Positions 3,515-37,317 of a stretch of DNA of 37,317 nucleotides are shown piece by piece. The notes below the pieces were generated by a model. That model was not told the origin of the DNA, searched no databases, and was given only the letters and a program-made list of their open reading frames with translations. The DNA is taken from IMG/VR virus record IMGVR_UViG_3300035661_000172, positions 1 to 37,317 of that record. One strand, given 5' to 3'. Both the position numbers and the translations under genes were made by a program. Positions within the stretch are counted from its first letter, which is position 1. Each line of letters opens with the position of its first letter. This DNA comes from a virus.

Positions 3515-5668
3515 ATGACCGTTTCGACCACTCTCTCCCGTGCTGACTTCCCCTGCAATGGGGTGACTACCTCTTTCCCCTTCAGCTTCCCGGTGAACGC
3601 CGCTTCCGACCTGACCGTGACGCTCACGGACGCCGACGGGAATGAGACTCTCTTGAACCAGAACTCGGACTATTCGGTGACTCTCGCGGGCACCTCGGGC
3701 GGGAGTGTGACGACCGTCCAGGCCTATGCCACGGGGATGGTCACCGTGAAGCGCATCGTGGACCTGACCCAGCCCACCAGCATCCGGAACCAGGGCGCCT
3801 TCTTCCCGGAGATCCACGAGAATGTCTTCGACCGGCTCACCATGATCGACCAGCAGCAGCAGGAGCAGCTCGACCGCAGCCTGAAGTTCCGGAATGCGCC
3901 TTCGGCCAGCATGACTATTCCGACACCCACCCCCAACGCAGCCCTCGCATGGGATGCCACAGGTAGCAGCCTCATCAATGTGCCAGCCCTCACACCCTCC
4001 GCCGAAGCCCTCCAAGCCAATCTCGCCGCCACCGGCGCCGGCCAGGGCGCGGAGATGGTGGGATACAAGGCGCCGTTCACGGGAGCGGTAGCAACGACGC
4101 AGGCAAGTAAAAACTTACAGACAGTTGATCTAACCGACTTTGGAACTGTGGATGTATCCGGGGTAGAGGATAGTTCCGCAGCATTCGCCAATGCCATAAA
4201 TGCTCTGGCTCATATCAACGGTAGCGCGGGTGGTGTCATCAACTGCCCCCGTGGTCTCATCAAGTGTAACATTGTACTAACTCAATCTGGAATCACTATC
4301 AGGGGAAAGGGCAAACGCGCCACGCGGCTGACTCCTGCTATTAATGCCCCAGTAATTTCAATTGGAAACATGAATGGGCCATTAGTTGATGACCACATCG
4401 AGGATCTAGGTTTTGACAACTCGGGTGGGGTAGCGACTGGAACGACGCCGGCCATTAGTTCTATTAGCACCACTCAAATCAACGATTCTAACCACTTCAA
4501 AAATCTGTTTATTCAGTATTTCCCTATTGGTATTTCAGTTACTGGACGATCAATTCTGACTGTATTTGATACAGTAGAAATCCTTAACTCGACATTGTAT
4601 GGGTGGAATATACATCCAGTCTCAGGAGCCTCTGTGAATCACATGCAAGTGATTAATAGTCGGTCCTATGTCAGTGGGAGTCACGGTTTCTATGCGAATG
4701 GTACCGATACAGATTTCATACTAGGTATTGACTTTGATCATTTTGACGCTGAATTTTGTGGTTACTCAAATGATAGGGTAGCCAACACGAATAATGGTAC
4801 CGCCGGAATCTGGGCAGAGAATGTTGAAGGCCTGAATCTCAGTAATGAGTGCTATTTCGAGAATAACGGGCTTGGAGCAGCAGACGGTAAAGGGGCCGGA
4901 GTCCGTATCACAGGAACTTATGGTGGGTGGTTCAACATTTGTTCGACACTTTCGTGGGCAACGCAAAATGCCATCTACATTGACGCTATTCAATCCATCG
5001 GTAATATTAGTTCTTGTCATTTGGCTGGAACTAATGCTGACATCAAAACTGCTTTTCCTATCGGGGGTGGGTCTAATATCTCCATCAGCGCAAATAAGAA
5101 CTCGGATGTCGGTGACAAGATTTATGTAGATGGTTACAGCCGTTCCTTCGTCAACTACCCTCAGCAGGCAACGGCCAACACCATCCAGGGGGCGCTTACG
5201 GATGGGATGTCCATGGCTCTCTGTAATGTCTTCTTCGCCAACTCTGGCCCCACAACGATGAACACGCTGACCGATGGAGCAATTGGGCAAGAGATCACCA
5301 TAATCTGCCCTAATTCAGTAATCACATGGGCCCACAAAAATGTATCTGATAATGGGTTCTATTTCCCGCAACTTGCCAATTTTGCATCGGCTCCGAACGC
5401 GATTATGACTTTCCGCCGTTTTCCAGGTCGCGGCTGGGTTTTTATCAGTGTTGCCACTAAGAGCTGGGGCATCAGCCAACTTTCATCCGGGACCGTCACA
5501 GTCTCGGACACCTCGATCACTAGCAATTCGATTATTCAAGTAAGTGTAATGTCCGCAGGAGGAACGCAAGGATTCCTTCGGGTTACACTTAATGCGGGGT
5601 CCGGTTTCACCATTACCAGCACATCAGGGACTGAAACATCCTGGGTGGCGTGGAATAAGTTGCAGTAA
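3515..5668 (+). CDS. Tail spike / receptor-binding protein (T7-fibre-like N-terminus, beta-helix body)
   Basis: A 717-residue tail spike. Residues 1 to about 130 resemble the virion-attachment domain shared by T7-type fibres and many podovirus spikes (LSRADFPCNGVTTSFPFSFP near the start, a TVKRIVDLTQPT segment, then a Gln-rich coiled stretch at QQQQEQLDRS). From about residue 225 there is a pectate-lyase-like start (GGVINCPRG, GITIRGKG) followed by asparagine- and glycine-rich repeats typical of a right-handed parallel beta-helix that binds or cleaves surface glycans. The last 60 or so residues (VTVSDTSITSNS, GFTITSTSGTETS) match a common C-terminal fibre tip domain. Base composition drops sharply from about 4100 onward, with many AT-ending codons, so the receptor-binding part looks newly acquired. 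The catalytic residues cannot be named from sequence alone. Confidence 0.9.
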   Translation: MTVSTTLSRADFPCNGVTTSFPFSFPVNAASDLTVTLTDADGNETLLNQNSDYSVTLAGTSGGSVTTVQAYATGMVTVKRIVDLTQPTSIRNQGAFFPEIHENVFDRLTMIDQQQQEQLDRSLKFRNAPSASMTIPTPTPNAALAWDATGSSLINVPALTPSAEALQANLAATGAGQGAEMVGYKAPFTGAVATTQASKNLQTVDLTDFGTVDVSGVEDSSAAFANAINALAHINGSAGGVINCPRGLIKCNIVLTQSGITIRGKGKRATRLTPAINAPVISIGNMNGPLVDDHIEDLGFDNSGGVATGTTPAISSISTTQINDSNHFKNLFIQYFPIGISVTGRSILTVFDTVEILNSTLYGWNIHPVSGASVNHMQVINSRSYVSGSHGFYANGTDTDFILGIDFDHFDAEFCGYSNDRVANTNNGTAGIWAENVEGLNLSNECYFENNGLGAADGKGAGVRITGTYGGWFNICSTLSWATQNAIYIDAIQSIGNISSCHLAGTNADIKTAFPIGGGSNISISANKNSDVGDKIYVDGYSRSFVNYPQQATANTIQGALTDGMSMALCNVFFANSGPTTMNTLTDGAIGQEITIICPNSVITWAHKNVSDNGFYFPQLANFASAPNAIMTFRRFPGRGWVFISVATKSWGISQLSSGTVTVSDTSITSNSIIQVSVMSAGGTQGFLRVTLNAGSGFTITSTSGTETSWVAWNKLQ

Positions 5669-5729
5669 TCCCGACGACTCCGGGCGGGTTACTCGCACAG
5701 CCAACCTTGGCCCTCAACAGGAGCACCAC

Positions 5730-5873
5730 ATGAGCTTCGACCAAGCATTCCAACGGTTCATTGGTTTCGTTGGAGGTTGCACCAACGAACACGGCCATCA
5801 TCGTAGCCGGTGCCGATGGACGCCGCAGGGGTTGGCGGGCTACCTGGTGGACGAACGGCGGACGAACGGATAG
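5730..5873 (+). pseudogene. Remnant of a GH108-type lysozyme gene (N-terminus only)
   Basis: A 47-codon frame with a good ribosome site (AGGAG at 5719-5723) whose first 17 residues, MSFDQAFQRFIGFVGGC, look like the start of glycoside hydrolase 108 phage lysozymes (pattern FD-AF-R-IG-EGGY-N). The catalytic glutamate of the EGG motif is Val here, and after residue 20 the similarity ends in a His/Arg-rich tail. Intact enzymes of this family are about 160-200 residues. The place just after the tail spike is usual for such a gene. I therefore read it as a decayed or recombined endolysin; the peptide may still be made. The active lysis enzyme is probably the M15 peptidase at 21683. It could also be an unrelated small protein. 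Confidence 0.45.
5847..5866 (+). repeat. Direct repeat copy 1 (GGACGAACGG type)
   Basis: GTGGACGAACGGCGGACGAA matches the block at 6044-6063 at 19 of 20 positions. Each block itself holds two spaced copies of GGACGAA(CGG). Such short direct repeats beside an integrase gene could be arm-type integrase or excisionase binding sites. That role is inferred. Confidence 0.4.
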
Positions 5874-5931
5874 GCCGCGCTTCCGGGTTCGCCTGCATTT
5901 TCAATCACTTACGGGACGTCACCAACGGATT

Positions 5932-5959
5932 TTGAGTGGGTCACGCCGGGCCCACTCAA
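5932..5959 (+). terminator. Hairpin in the spike-integrase intergenic region, possible terminator
   Basis: A perfect 9-bp inverted repeat, TTGAGTGGG (5932-5940) and CCCACTCAA (5951-5959), with a 10-base loop. No T-tract follows, so it is a weak candidate for an intrinsic terminator of the virion operon and may instead be part of the recombination region. The surrounding stretch 5874-6064 contains no gene I can support. Confidence 0.3.
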
Positions 5960-6043
5960 GGCCCGTGCACTCCACGAAACGCCCGTGACTACTGGCTTGC
6001 GCTCCACCTGGCTCCATGGCTAGCCTCTTGAGTTCACGGTTCC

Positions 6044-6063
6044 GTGGACGAACGGGGGACGAA
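6044..6063 (+). repeat. Direct repeat copy 2 (GGACGAACGG type)
   Basis: GTGGACGAACGGGGGACGAA is the second copy of the block at 5847-5866, with one mismatch. It lies directly upstream of the chosen integrase ATG at 6065, and its GGGGGAC doubles as the ribosome site. Confidence 0.4.
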
Positions 6064-6064
6064 A

Positions 6065-7249
6065 ATGCGGTGGACGGAGGCGGGGCTTCGGGCCCTTCAG
6101 CCGACCGGGAAACGCGAGCAGTTCACAGACCCGACCACGCCTGGCCTGGTCCTGCTCATGACTCCGGCGGGCGCCAAGACATTCTACTTGGTTTACCGGG
6201 CGGGGGGAGGCCGGGCCGGCCGGAAGCGGTGGCACAAGATCGGTCGTTTCGGAGTAGACGGCGGCCTGGAGTGGGCCCAGCGCCGGGCGGTGGTCCTCCG
6301 CGGGAGGGTCCAGGAGGGTCAGGACCCGCAGGAGACCCGGAAGGCCGGGCGCGGGGCGAAGCCGGGCTACACCGTGGCGGACCTGTGTGACCGCTTCGAG
6401 CGCGACTACCTGGACGCGGAGAAGGTGCGCCCCTCCACAGCGGTGGGCTACAGGCAGCACATCAAGGCCCACATCCGCCCCGAACTCGGGGGGCTGACCG
6501 TGGCCGAGGTCCGGCCCACTCACATCACCGCGCTGCTTGAGTCCGTGGCGAAGCGGTCTCCCGGGCAGGCCAACAAGCTCCGGGCCACGCTCTCCCGCAT
6601 GTTCAACCGGGCCGAGCTGTGGGAGCTCCGATCGGCGGGCTCCAACCCGGTGAGGGGGCAGGACCGGCAGCCCAGCACGCCGCGGACGGTTCGGCTCAGT
6701 GAGGCCCAGGTCCAGCGCCTCGGGGCTGCGCTGCGGGATTCCGGCGAGGGGTGGCAGGCCAAGGCCGGGGTGGTGATCCTCCTGCTCACCGGGATGCGGC
6801 TCTCCGAGGTGAAGGGGAACGCCGCGAAGAAGATCGCCCCCCTGCCATGGTCCGCGGTGGACCTGGAGGCCGGGGTGGTGCGCCTGGAGTGGCACAAGAC
6901 GGCGAAGAAGGTGGGCGCCAAGACCGTCTATCTCTGCCCCGAGCTGGTGGCCTACCTAAAGGCCCTGCCCAAGGCGGGCCCCCTGGTCCTGGCCGACTAC
7001 CGGAACATGCACGGCGCATGGCAGCGGCTGCGCAAGGCGGCGGATCTACCGGGCGTCACCCTTCACGACCTCCGGCACACCTTCACCAGTTTCGGGGATG
7101 ACCTGGGGTTCAGCGAGGCGACCCGGGCCGCGCTGGTGGGCCACAAGGCGGGGACGATGACCGGTCGCTACACCCACAAGGTGGACTCAGCCCTCGCCGG
7201 AGCCGCCGCAAAGATTGGCGGGCACCTGTGGGGGCTGTTAGGCTTGTGA
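6065..7249 (+). CDS. int: Tyrosine-recombinase integrase
   Basis: A 394-residue phage integrase of the P4/DUF4102-containing type. The N-terminal part (residues about 1-90) fits the arm-binding domain (TEAGLRAL, DPTTPGLVLL, KTFYLVYR), the middle (about 100-190) the core-binding SAM-like domain, and the C-terminal part the catalytic domain. Catalytic residues visible are Arg245 in TGMRLSE, His334 and Arg337 in LHDLRH, His360 in VGHK and the nucleophile Tyr369 in GRYTH. The set is complete, so it should be active. A GTG at 6044 would add seven residues, but the ATG at 6065 has GGGGGAC at good spacing and gives the usual N-terminus. The stop lies 3 bases before a tRNA-Leu gene, and the excisionase converges from the other side. 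Confidence 0.95.
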   Translation: MRWTEAGLRALQPTGKREQFTDPTTPGLVLLMTPAGAKTFYLVYRAGGGRAGRKRWHKIGRFGVDGGLEWAQRRAVVLRGRVQEGQDPQETRKAGRGAKPGYTVADLCDRFERDYLDAEKVRPSTAVGYRQHIKAHIRPELGGLTVAEVRPTHITALLESVAKRSPGQANKLRATLSRMFNRAELWELRSAGSNPVRGQDRQPSTPRTVRLSEAQVQRLGAALRDSGEGWQAKAGVVILLLTGMRLSEVKGNAAKKIAPLPWSAVDLEAGVVRLEWHKTAKKVGAKTVYLCPELVAYLKALPKAGPLVLADYRNMHGAWQRLRKAADLPGVTLHDLRHTFTSFGDDLGFSEATRAALVGHKAGTMTGRYTHKVDSALAGAAAKIGGHLWGLLGL

Positions 7250-7252
7250 CCT

Positions 7253-7336
7253 CCCCGAGTGGCGGAATGGCAGACGCACTCGACTCAAAATCGAGCGCCG
7301 CAAGGCGTGCCGGTTCGACCCCGGCCTCGGGGACCA
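7253..7336 (+). tRNA. tRNA-Leu(CAA)
   Basis: An 84-base tRNA that folds completely by eye. The acceptor stem is CCCCGAG (7253-7259) with CTCGGGG (7326-7332). The D stem is GCG/CGC, the anticodon stem CTCGA/TCGAG with loop CTCAAAA (anticodon CAA), the long class II variable arm CGCC-GCAA-GGCG, and the T arm GCCGG-TTCGACC-CCGGC. Discriminator A and an encoded CCA follow. Class II shape, discriminator A and CAA anticodon give leucine, reading TTG. It lies 3 bases after int and 1 base before the xis stop. It is probably the integration target or attP core (inferred). A pure codon-supply role is less likely, because TTG is uncommon in these genes. Confidence 0.93.
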
Positions 7337-7337
7337 G

Positions 7338-7517
7338 TCACGCCGCCCCCTTCTGCGCCTCGATCCAGGCGTCCAGGTCGGAGCGGTCGTACCGCACGGA
7401 CCGGCCCAGGTGGATGACCCGGGGCCCTAGGCCCTTGTACCGCCAGTTCTCCAGCGTGCCCGGCTCCATGCCCAGGTAGGCGGCGGCGGCGATGGTGTCG
7501 AAAAGGCGGATCTCCAT
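7338..7517 (-). CDS. xis: Excisionase / AlpA-like helix-turn-helix protein
   Basis: A 59-residue protein of the MerR-type or HTH_17 winged-helix fold used by phage excisionases: DTIAAAAYLGMEPGTLENWR forms the helix-turn-helix and GPRVIHLGRSVRYDRSDLDAWI the wing and last helix. It would bind DNA near the attachment site and direct integrase toward excision. It is the last gene of the leftward early operon and converges on int with only the tRNA between them, so excisionase is more likely than a transcription regulator such as AlpA. The start ATG at 7517 lies 1 base after the stop of a tiny upstream frame (7519-7578), suggesting coupling. Confidence 0.8.
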   Translation of the reverse strand: MEIRLFDTIAAAAYLGMEPGTLENWRYKGLGPRVIHLGRSVRYDRSDLDAWIEAQKGAA

Positions 7518-7518
7518 C

Positions 7519-7578
7519 CTACGCCTCCCCCTCTGTGCCGGTGAGGGTCAGGCACCGGGGGCAACATTTTGCCTTCAT
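7519..7578 (-). CDS. Tiny Cys-rich peptide upstream of xis
   Basis: A 19-residue frame, MKAKCCPRCLTLTGTEGEA, with a strong ribosome site (AAGGAG, 6 bases upstream) and a stop just before the xis start. It may be a translational leader for xis or a minimal CxxC peptide. Evidence is the ribosome site, the spacing and the pattern of tightly packed genes in this operon; I know no family for it. Confidence 0.35.
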   Translation of the reverse strand: MKAKCCPRCLTLTGTEGEA

Positions 7579-7626
7579 GGTTGCTCCTTCTGGTTCGTGT
7601 TTCGCGCGATAGGCGGACTAGTTGTT

Positions 7627-7647
7627 CGCCTAAATTAAAGTTAGGCG
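7627..7647 (-). other. Hairpin spanning a stop codon
   Basis: A perfect 7-bp inverted repeat, CGCCTAA (7627-7633) and TTAGGCG (7641-7647), covers the stop codon of the 84-residue gene that ends at 7641. A second, imperfect one (7612-7632, AGGCGGAC/GTTCGCCT) follows on the minus strand. No T-run follows, so this may be an RNA processing or regulatory element before xis, not a terminator. The stretch 7579-7640 holds no gene I can support. Confidence 0.3.
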
Positions 7648-7895
7648 TCTTGCCCGCATACGTAATGCGCAGGTGCAAACATGGGTTTTGCCCACTCCCA
7701 CTTGGCTCCGTTCCGGCTGCCCCGGATGGCGATTCTGGGGCCATTCTCTGTTTCCACTTCTTTGGCCCACACCCCTCTTGAATGATGGAATCCCATGTTG
7801 TCCAGCACCTTGTATTTCTTCCCCTCTACCTCGACACTTCCGAGGCGCCTAACCACGCGCTCAACCCGGACCCCGCCTTCATTGTTGTGGCTCAT
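7641..7895 (-). CDS. Hypothetical early protein (84 aa)
   Basis: An 84-residue soluble protein of unknown function. It is rich in basic and aromatic residues (VERVVRRLGSVEVEG, GVWAKEVETENGPRIAIRG, AKWEWAKPMF) and looks like a small beta-sheet fold. I chose the ATG at 7895 because GGAGGAAC sits 6-12 bases upstream. A longer start at 7916 overlaps the previous stop by one base and lacks such a site. It is one of a run of small genes in the leftward early operon between the recombination genes and xis. Such genes often encode host-takeover or anti-defence proteins, but nothing here shows that. Confidence 0.6.
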   Translation of the reverse strand: MSHNNEGGVRVERVVRRLGSVEVEGKKYKVLDNMGFHHSRGVWAKEVETENGPRIAIRGSRNGAKWEWAKPMFAPAHYVCGQDA

Positions 7896-7915
7896 GTCGT
7901 TCCTCCAGATGGTCA

Positions 7916-8128
7916 TCAGCCGTTGCAGGGTGGGAAAACCATCGTCTGTCTGACGAGGATCAACCCGCGATAGGTGGTGGCGTTGCCACTCTGAACGAAG
8001 GGCGTGTATCGAGCCATCGTCTTTTTCAGTTCATCGAAGGCGTCGTCTTTAAGGACCAACCCTGCGGGAAGGGGAAGATTCCGTCGCGCGAGATCCGTGA
8101 TGAAGTCGTCGATCTGTTCAAAGGTCAT
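7916..8128 (-). CDS. Hypothetical early protein (70 aa)
   Basis: A 70-residue protein with no recognised family. The first half is helical and acidic (MTFEQIDDFITDLARRN), and the second half ends in hydrophobic strands (YRGLILVRQTMVF). There is no membrane segment or metal motif. The start ATG overlaps the stop of the upstream gene as ATGA, which fixes the start. The longer frame upstream of it is a shadow of the neighbouring gene. It belongs to the leftward early operon. Confidence 0.6.
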   Translation of the reverse strand: MTFEQIDDFITDLARRNLPLPAGLVLKDDAFDELKKTMARYTPFVQSGNATTYRGLILVRQTMVFPPCNG

Positions 8129-34400: not shown

Positions 34401-37317
34401 TGGCCGAGCCCGATTACAACGCATCGGTGCAGCAACTCCTGCAGGGGCAGAGTCAGGCGGCCCAGCTCAAGCAGTCCATGGCCGTAGGCCTGGACTATGA
34501 CCCGGACGCCTATGCGAAGACCCTCAAGTTGGCCATGAAGACCGGCGTCCCGCCCCAGGTGGTGCAGCAGAGCGACCTTCAGCCCATGCTCCAGAAGCAG
34601 TCCACCCTGGATTCCATCGACTTCGATTCTCTGGTGCGAAGCCATTCCCGGACCGCACAGTGGCTCTCCACACCGGACAACGCTGCAGTGGCGCATGACG
34701 ACATCTGGACGCTGGCCCACCTGGAGAGGGTCGCTAAGGACGTGACGAGCCAGGTGGCCCAGTTCCCCCAGAAGATGATGGGCGGCACCTTCCGCGCCAT
34801 CGGCGGCGCGGCCATACTCATGGACGCCGTGAATGCGGAAGCCAGCAAGCCTGACGGAGCTCTGTGGGCCAAGGCACTTAACCTAGCCTTCAATCCTGCT
34901 GGGAATGTGGACCGGGAGCAGTTGGTGGCCCGGGTCGGCAAGGATATCCGGGACTACTACACCCCCCTGTTCACCGATCCCAGCCTTGCGCCTGAGACCA
35001 CCTCTGGGCACGTAGCAGACTTCGCCGCTGGCATCGCGGGCACCATGACCAAGGCGGTTCTCACGGGCCCCGCGGCGCCCTTCGTCTTCGGCGGTGAAGC
35101 CTTCGGTGAATCAGGCGGGTCTGCGCTTGAACGCGGGGCAACCCCGGGCCAGGCCATGTTCAAGGCGACCGGATCTGGGGCACTGAATACGGCACTCGCC
35201 TTCGTCCCGGGCGGGAAGTTCGGCAGCGAGCAGGCTCTGGCGGATGCCTTCGCCCAGGGCGGCAAGATGGCCGTGGCTAAGGAACTCGCCAAGGGCGTGA
35301 CTGCCCGGGTAGCCCGGGGCGCCGCCCTGGGAACCGGTGTCACCGTGGCGGAGAATCTACTCAGCCGCCCCTATGCCCCCAACACCCCCCTGCTGGAGGG
35401 CGCCCAGGACAACATCGCTTCATTCATCGGCCTGGAGGGCGCGGGATACCTGAACCACGCCATCGCCTTGACGGCGCAGTCGAAGCTGAAGGCGCGCTCC
35501 CCCGAGGCTTTTCAAGATGCCGCCACGGGCATCTTCAAGGACACGGGTGCCGAGACGGCACTGATCAATTCTGATCACCTTCAGACCTTCTTCCAGAAGC
35601 AGGGCCTGGACGCTCCGGCCGCGGCCCAAATGATCGAGAAGCTGGGCGTGAAGAACTACGTGGAGGCCCTGGCGGCCGGGACGGACGTGCAGATCCCAAC
35701 GGCGAACCTCCTGGCTCATCTGAACCCCCAGCAGCTGGAGGCCATCAAGCCGGACCTCCGGCTTCTCTCTCAGGAGATGACCCCGCGCCAGGCGGAGGAG
35801 TACGAGAAGACCGCCCCCGAGCGCGTGGCGCAGCTGGTAGAGCAGGCCAAGGCCGAACTCCCCGACGAGCAGTTCCAGGCCTTCACCGCGATCAAGGCCG
35901 AGTTGCAGAAGCGCCTGGAGGCCACCGGCCGATTCACCCCGGCCATCGCTGAGGACAACGCCACCCTGGCGGCCCGGGGGCTTGTGAATCTGTCCCAGCG
36001 TGAGGGGCTGGACCCTTTAAAACAGTTTGAGAAGTATGGTCTCACCATCACCGGGCCAGGCGGGGAAGGCTCCCCGATGCGTCCTCTCATGGGGCAGGTC
36101 CCGGAAGCCTTCAAGGACATCCCCGGCCTGCAGCCCAGCGGCGAGGACTTCACCATCCCCACCTCCGAGCTGACCGCGGACCCATCCAGGTTCCAGTACA
36201 AGGGCCGGAACGAGACCACCGGCTTGAACCAGGTCAACAAGGAGACCGGCGCCTCGGGCTCCCTGGCGGGCGTGAAGGTCTGGAACCCTGATAGCGCGGG
36301 AACCATCAGCGCCTGGCGCGACCCTGCGGACGGCAAGACCTACGTGGTGAACGGGCACAATCGCTACGACCTGGCGAAGAAGCTGGGCGTGGACCGGCTC
36401 AAGGTTCGCTTCATTGACGCGAAGAACGCGGGCGAGGCCAAGATCGCCGGGGCCATCCAGAACATCGCCTCCGGGAAGGGCACGGCCATGGACGCCGGGA
36501 CCCTCTTCCGGGACGGCAAGTACACCCTGGGGGACCTGGAGCGCCTGGGCATCCCCACGAACAAGGACGTGGTGGTGAACGGCCTGGCCCTCTCCCGCCT
36601 TAGCGATCCCTGGTTCCAGGCCGCCAAGAGCGATCCCGAGTTTGAGCGCCTGGCGGTCGAGACCGGGAAGGCTGGCCTGACGCCCCAACAACAGGGCGTG
36701 GCCCTGCAGGAGCTGAACACGATCCTGAAGAAGAAGGGCGCCGAGGACATCACTAGCGCCTTCTGGCGGGACATGCTGGACCGCATCAAGGGCTCCCGGG
36801 TGACCACCACCCAGGAAGAGGGGCTCTTCGGCTCCGAGGAGTCCTACCAGTCCACCCTGGAGCAGCAAACGGACCTGATCCGCTTCATCCGGTCGAAGCT
36901 GCGCGCGGACAAGACGGTGGGCCAGGTGCTCACCGGGGGCCGTTACGAGGAGGCCGTGGGCAAGGCCGCCACCGTGGACAAGGAGGCCGCGACCGGGATC
37001 AAGCAGGACGCCGGGACCACCCTGGGGACCTTCGAGGCCATGAAGAACCTCACGGGTGTGGGAGATGTGATCAACGAGTTCGCCACCAAGCTCCAGCAGG
37101 CTCGCTCTGCCAAGGAGGCCGATGCCATCCGGCAGGAGGCCCTGGCCGCCGTGAAGGATTCCATCAAGGAGATGCAGGGCAAGCCCAAGCCGCCAGTGGA
37201 GGAGGGGCAGACCCTATTCCAGCCTGCAGAAAAGACCACAGAGCAGATCAAGCAGGAGGCATTCGATCGGTTCAACGACCCCCGCACCGAAGAGGAATAC
37301 AACGCGATGCCTGGTAC
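34400..37317 (+). CDS. Giant internal virion polyvalent protein, N-terminal part, with DarB/DdrB-like ParB domain
   Basis: 972 complete codons plus two bases, open at the right edge. The frame continues in phase into base 1. Residues 1-200 are helical with a segment MMGGTFRAIGGAAILMDAV; residues about 200-340 are Ala/Gly-rich, with hydrophobic stretches that may insert in the membrane on ejection. Residues about 585-730 match the ParB-like domain of phage DarB/DdrB antirestriction proteins: TGLNQVNKETGASGSLAGVKV, YVVNGHNRYDLAKKLGV (GHNRYD near 651), then AIQNIASGKGTAMDAGTLFRD. It probably enters the cell with the DNA and may protect it from host defences in addition to forming the channel. 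Confidence 0.82.
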   Translation, partial: MAEPDYNASVQQLLQGQSQAAQLKQSMAVGLDYDPDAYAKTLKLAMKTGVPPQVVQQSDLQPMLQKQSTLDSIDFDSLVRSHSRTAQWLSTPDNAAVAHDDIWTLAHLERVAKDVTSQVAQFPQKMMGGTFRAIGGAAILMDAVNAEASKPDGALWAKALNLAFNPAGNVDREQLVARVGKDIRDYYTPLFTDPSLAPETTSGHVADFAAGIAGTMTKAVLTGPAAPFVFGGEAFGESGGSALERGATPGQAMFKATGSGALNTALAFVPGGKFGSEQALADAFAQGGKMAVAKELAKGVTARVARGAALGTGVTVAENLLSRPYAPNTPLLEGAQDNIASFIGLEGAGYLNHAIALTAQSKLKARSPEAFQDAATGIFKDTGAETALINSDHLQTFFQKQGLDAPAAAQMIEKLGVKNYVEALAAGTDVQIPTANLLAHLNPQQLEAIKPDLRLLSQEMTPRQAEEYEKTAPERVAQLVEQAKAELPDEQFQAFTAIKAELQKRLEATGRFTPAIAEDNATLAARGLVNLSQREGLDPLKQFEKYGLTITGPGGEGSPMRPLMGQVPEAFKDIPGLQPSGEDFTIPTSELTADPSRFQYKGRNETTGLNQVNKETGASGSLAGVKVWNPDSAGTISAWRDPADGKTYVVNGHNRYDLAKKLGVDRLKVRFIDAKNAGEAKIAGAIQNIASGKGTAMDAGTLFRDGKYTLGDLERLGIPTNKDVVVNGLALSRLSDPWFQAAKSDPEFERLAVETGKAGLTPQQQGVALQELNTILKKKGAEDITSAFWRDMLDRIKGSRVTTTQEEGLFGSEESYQSTLEQQTDLIRFIRSKLRADKTVGQVLTGGRYEEAVGKAATVDKEAATGIKQDAGTTLGTFEAMKNLTGVGDVINEFATKLQQARSAKEADAIRQEALAAVKDSIKEMQGKPKPPVEEGQTLFQPAEKTTEQIKQEAFDRFNDPRTEEEYNAMPG

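Follow-up and report, generated by a model that had tools for sequence, protein, structure and literature searches.

A complete tRNA-Leu(CAA) gene behind the integrase of a podovirus-type phage as a strong candidate for tRNA-dependent lysogeny

Analysis of a 37,317-nucleotide viral DNA (here called the window, the whole stretch that was analysed and the entire IMG/VR virus record IMGVR_UViG_3300035661_000172; GC 63.6%) revealed a complete tRNA-Leu(CAA) gene directly behind a tyrosine integrase gene. Judged from the sequence, this arrangement is probably best explained by tRNA-dependent lysogeny, for which we consider the phage a strong candidate. In tRNA-dependent lysogeny, integration through a core of 8-17 bp destroys the host tRNA, and an isotype-matched tRNA encoded by the phage replaces it (Guerrero-Bustamante & Hatfull 2024; PMC10865867). 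The spread of this mechanism beyond actinobacteriophages was left open by these authors (PMC10865867). It is familiar in mycobacterial phages and hardly described elsewhere, and we found no report of it for the phage group of the window. The features concerned are the following:

5669-6064, no strand: noncoding region from the tail spike gene (stop codon ending at 5668) to int (ATG 6065), holding the proposed attP
5849-5869, plus strand: proposed arm-type integrase sites, two exact copies of GGACGAACGG 11 bp apart (repeat family D1)
5928-5937, minus strand: proposed attP core ACTCAAAATC, equal to positions 31-40 of tRNA-Leu(CAA)
6046-6066, plus strand: proposed arm-type sites, GGACGAACGG followed at a spacing of 11 bp by the degenerate GGACGAAAAT, reaching the int start
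6065-7249, plus strand: tyrosine integrase (Int) with arm-binding, SAM-like and catalytic domains
7253-7336, plus strand: complete tRNA-Leu(CAA) gene with encoded CCA, the proposed replacement of the host tRNA
7338-7517, minus strand: excisionase-like HTH_17 protein of 59 aa (xis), convergent with int and the tRNA gene

ARAGORN detected a single tRNA in the window, tRNA-Leu(caa) at 7253-7336 on the plus strand. The Rfam tRNA model RF00005 matched 7253-7333 with 52.8 bits (cut-off 29); this match was missed by a fast scan of the whole window and was found in a later Rfam run. Pairing is intact in the acceptor, D, anticodon and T stems, CCA is encoded at the 3' end, and the anticodon loop CTCAAAA lies between the inverted repeat halves CTCGA and TCGAG. 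The int stop codon (7247-7249) is followed by a gap at 7250-7252 and then by the tRNA gene, which is separated by position 7337 from the convergent xis stop codon (7338-7340, minus strand). The sequence-only reading of this DNA had described a complete tRNA with encoded CCA, spaced 3 bases from the int stop and one base from the xis stop, and ARAGORN, Rfam and the coordinates all confirm it. No sigma-70-like promoter was seen in 5600-8000.

Int matched the Pfam families Phage_integrase (PF00589) and Arm-DNA-bind_3, a SAM-like domain and the PHROG family phrog_1, and it contains the conserved catalytic motifs TGMRL, HKTAKK, LHDLRHT, VGHKA and RYTHK. Its start is probably the ATG at 6065, the value given by the earlier reading, rather than the mechanically assigned GTG at 6044. 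The xis product carries the Pfam domain HTH_17 and belongs to the PHROG excisionase family phrog_66; its match to TIGR01764 scores under the cut-off of that model. An inverted repeat (CGCCTAA/TTAGGCG) at 7618-7646, upstream of xis, is perhaps an operator. Other genes in the window are of podovirus type (terminase, head-tail adaptor, major head protein, tail proteins and tail spike), with the head-tail adaptor sharing about 54% identity with its counterparts in enterobacterial podoviruses, e.g. SPN1S and TL-2011b. The tail spike gene (3515-5668) displayed a GC content of 0.51 and a GC3 of 0.56, compared with about 0.65 and 0.88 elsewhere; located beside the integration module, it is perhaps a recent acquisition.

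Both contig ends (37317/1) lie inside one giant virion gene and join in frame; the record therefore holds no host DNA, and the tRNA gene belongs to the free phage genome. In the related phage IMGVR_UViG_3300021139_000049 (hereafter G001), whose head-tail adaptor is 94% identical, about 1.7 kb of extra coding sequence was found exactly at this junction, so the circle is perhaps incomplete. The difference at 37317/1 may stem from sequence lacking in the record or from the genuine loss of a domain.

The sequence ACTCAAAATC occurs twice in the 37.3 kb, once in the tRNA-Leu(CAA) gene and once at 5928-5937 on the minus strand. It spans the whole anticodon loop CTCAAAA together with closing bases and, in the noncoding region, sits between two pairs of direct repeats, 128 bp from int. 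Exact copies of GGACGAACGG were found in the window only at 5849, 5860 and 6046, with the degenerate copy at 6057. In 5000 dinucleotide shuffles of the upstream region, in which any loop-containing 10-mer was counted, such matches arose in 0.12% (p = 0.0012); a core of 10 bp is short, and the region was searched for it only after tRNA-dependent lysogeny was known to us from the literature. Apart from the core, no tRNA match of at least 8 bp was found in 5669-6064, and a classical 3'-fragment attP upstream of int was rejected, as the candidate holds only tRNA positions 31-40. The candidate attP matches the phage's own tRNA-Leu(CAA) and those of Dawidia, Sinorhizobium and Sphingomonas over 10 bp, and that of Mycobacterium phage Gaia over 12 bp. 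A perfect 9-bp inverted repeat, TTGAGTGGG/CCCACTCAA at 5932-5959, overlaps the proposed core, and there is a second inverted repeat, CGGGCC/GGCCCG, which encloses CACTCAA; these repeats are possibly an extra Int or Xis site. Integration at the repeats of 5847-6063, which the sequence-only reading had listed as an outcome contrary to its own proposal, is now the likely one, given the candidate core and the paired repeats found there.

Among 80 related integrase loci, about 15 contain a 3' tRNA fragment that starts near the anticodon loop. All of these fragments lie upstream of int, on the strand opposite to it, as does the proposed core of the window, and the integrase family therefore usually has its attP upstream. 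Complete tRNAs were rare at these 80 loci, and none was located just downstream of int. Locus L049 was rejected as a complete-tRNA attP, with flanks showing no recognised phage genes and no second core found. A search for close relatives of Int in IMG/VR revealed none.

In the proposed mechanism, Int would recombine the upstream attP (core 5928-5937) with a host tRNA-Leu(CAA) gene, a target whose isotype is predicted from the attP core and not from host sequence. The predicted junctions consist of the host 5' half, ACTCAAAATC and CGTTGGTGACG on one side, and of GGCGTGACCC, ACTCAAAATC and the host 3' half on the other. Since attP and target would have just about 10-12 bp in common, neither junction would rebuild a working tRNA, and the host tRNA-Leu(CAA) gene would be lost. 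ARAGORN found no tRNA in the attL and attR hybrids, modelled with the phage tRNA in place of the host gene, and did find one in the intact gene. In the lysogen, the phage tRNA-Leu(CAA), whose gene follows int on the same strand after 3 bases, would be expressed, perhaps by way of the int transcript, and would take over UUG decoding, so that the host survives. With a core too short to rebuild the host tRNA, the complete phage tRNA with the same anticodon most likely acts as the substitute. A genuine phage tRNA had been one of the options of the earlier reading; the evidence favours it, with the specific role of substitute for a host tRNA broken by integration. If the host had more than one copy of tRNA-Leu(CAA), the phage tRNA would help but be dispensable. 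More speculatively, Int might also recombine attP with the phage tRNA, which has the same core in opposite orientation, and thereby invert its own gene.

A search of the scanned GTDB genomes with the tRNA 3' half as an exact 49-base pattern gave 0 matches. A loose tRNA pattern detected only Dawidia soli in the GTDB genomes (90% identical across the tRNA); this match was judged coincidental and D. soli was rejected as host. No host was found by the tRNA search in IMG/VR, and the searches made revealed no lysogen, attL or attR.

We consider it unlikely that the tRNA is ordinary cargo, acting as a translation aid or as a replacement for tRNAs cut by host defences and located beside int by chance. 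Such phages do carry cargo tRNAs, as G001 has a tRNA-Tyr far from its integrases and without a matching core nearby. However, UUG codons are rare in the phage of the window (about 5 per 1000) and are not enriched in the AT-richer spike gene; these counts do not support codon usage as the reason for the tRNA. Moreover, the cargo explanation makes the isotype match to the upstream core a coincidence. G001 itself (L018-L020; 355-1550, 25856-25940, 36882-38207) has two different integrases, the first of them directly followed by a 3' tRNA-Asn(GTT) fragment; at a great distance it also carries a complete tRNA-Tyr(GTA), behind which there are tRNA-like remnants. This tRNA-Tyr was rejected as a second case of tRNA-dependent lysogeny, with no anticodon-loop core found near the integrases.

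Less probable again is that the tRNA-Leu(CAA) gene is itself attP and that a crossover in its anticodon loop leaves each end of the prophage with a complete hybrid tRNA, the gene thus being duplicated. This was our first reading, later dropped for the upstream core and repeats. The gene does adjoin int and xis, and its loop CTCAAAA flanked by CTCGA/TCGAG has the usual core shape for tRNA integrases (PMC8371274). In Acidovorax phage AP1, a 3' fragment of tRNA-Leu follows int in the same direction at a distance of about 100 bp, and the 3' tRNA-Asn fragment of G001 directly follows an int different from ours. Yet arm-type repeats around the tRNA did not exceed chance (two shared 9-mers in the flanks versus 1.3 expected), and, with a better attP upstream, the earlier suggestion of an attP inside the tRNA with arm sites in int and xis is not supported. 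The attP fragments of related integrases are likewise found upstream of int on the other strand and never downstream, and a tRNA serving as attP would leave the upstream core and repeats without explanation. Our literature search revealed nothing direct on a complete tRNA within attP.

A non-functional relic of past imprecise excision at a host tRNA-Leu locus is very improbable: although the gene adjoins the integration genes and convergent transcription would read into it, its stems are all intact and its CCA encoded where a relic would be expected to decay, its score is like that of a bacterial gene (52.8 versus 56.2 bits for Dawidia), and no host flank accompanies it.

Arrangements comparable to the one proposed here as tRNA-dependent lysogeny were detected in other phages. 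Aeromonas phage ST4 (OR261032; L023, 2613-3012) and Achromobacter phage Mano (MT708550; L124, 3001-3199) each have a complete tRNA-Lys(TTT) near int and a short, separate tRNA-Lys core upstream on the opposite strand, and in the IMG/VR contig L046 (526-700) a complete tRNA is accompanied, upstream of int, by a short, separate anticodon-loop core that matches its isotype. On such sequence evidence, ST4, Mano and L046 are further candidates for tRNA-dependent lysogeny. ST4 and Mano differ from the window in that their tRNA is a tRNA-Lys located upstream of int and in that they are other phage types; the ST4 integrase is the best full-length match to Int in the phage collection (27%). No publication describing ST4 or Mano as cases of tRNA-dependent lysogeny was found.

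The region upstream of int matched the anticodon loop of the phage's own isotype over 10 bases in the window, 9 in ST4, 9 in Mano, 10 in L046 and 7 in Mycobacterium phage LeBron, whereas tRNAs of other isotypes reached at most 8 bases in the same cross-matrix; the core of the window is isotype-specific in this comparison. The own-tRNA match of LeBron (7) is not above that of the best other isotype, and other tRNA-Lys(TTT) genes match by 11. Shuffling gave values of 0.01 for ST4, 0.0013 for L046 and 0.009 for LeBron. The ST4 attP has 12 bp in common with E. coli tRNA-Lys versus 9 with its own tRNA, and the L046 attP 15 bp with another tRNA-Met versus 10 with its own. The longer core match to a foreign than to the own tRNA in ST4, L046 and the window likely arises because the phage tRNA stays different from the host gene and is thereby spared by Int.

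tRNA-dependent lysogeny would explain why a single complete tRNA is retained next to the integrase of a temperate phage. It also provides a sequence test for any phage collection, in which a complete tRNA is sought together with an anticodon-loop core of matching isotype, 9-15 bp long and separate from it, upstream of int. Two isolated phages that are amenable to laboratory work, ST4 and Mano, emerged from this test. If the arrangement is common, some phage tRNAs credited to codon usage would be lysogeny genes. More tentatively, tRNA-dependent lysogeny could be recurrent and independently evolved outside Actinobacteria, with the replacement tRNA here fused to the integrase transcription unit and delivered with each integration.

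Among phages of classical design, AP1 has a tRNA-targeting integrase with a tRNA-Leu(CAA)-like target and carries only the 3' tRNA part, and G001 has another integrase and a classical 3' tRNA-Asn fragment, with no tRNA-Asn gene. The contrast between related phages such as that of the window and G001 resembles the one among related mycobacteriophages (PMC10865867). Gaia (cluster X) integrates at attB-11, a tRNA-Leu-CAA gene, through an 8-bp core, and its junctions were sequenced (PMC10865867). Like the window, it has a tyrosine int with a complete tRNA-Leu(CAA) behind it in the same orientation, and its short core in common with a host tRNA-Leu-CAA corresponds to the core proposed here; however, its int-tRNA gap is 286 bp instead of 3, its excise gene lies upstream and divergent whereas xis of the window is downstream and convergent, its integrase is barely similar to Int (38% over 39 aa) and its host is actinobacterial. 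The same own-tRNA core search, applied to Gaia as a control, did not recover the published 8-bp core and is thus incomplete. LeBron (cluster L1) uses tRNA-dependent lysogeny at tRNA-Lys-TTT (PMC10865867). Like the proposed core of the window, its anticodon-loop core GGACTTTTAATCC lies opposite to the int strand and upstream, at 144 bp (128 here), with tandem repeats beside int; unlike in the window, the tRNA is a tRNA-Lys encoded close to a tRNA cluster, at a distance of about 31 kb from int, and the integrase is distant. Prophages of Sinorhizobium meliloti that resemble Mesorhizobium phage Lo5R7ANS were later reported to disrupt tRNA-Leu(UAG) when they integrate and to supply one of their own (PMC11476347). 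A core matching its own tRNA was not found near int of Lo5R7ANS, which differs from the window in the isoacceptor (UAG), in being T7-like and in a distance of 1.4 kb between tRNA and int. What these prophages share with the reading proposed for the window is a host tRNA-Leu that is destroyed and replaced, in a Gram-negative host.
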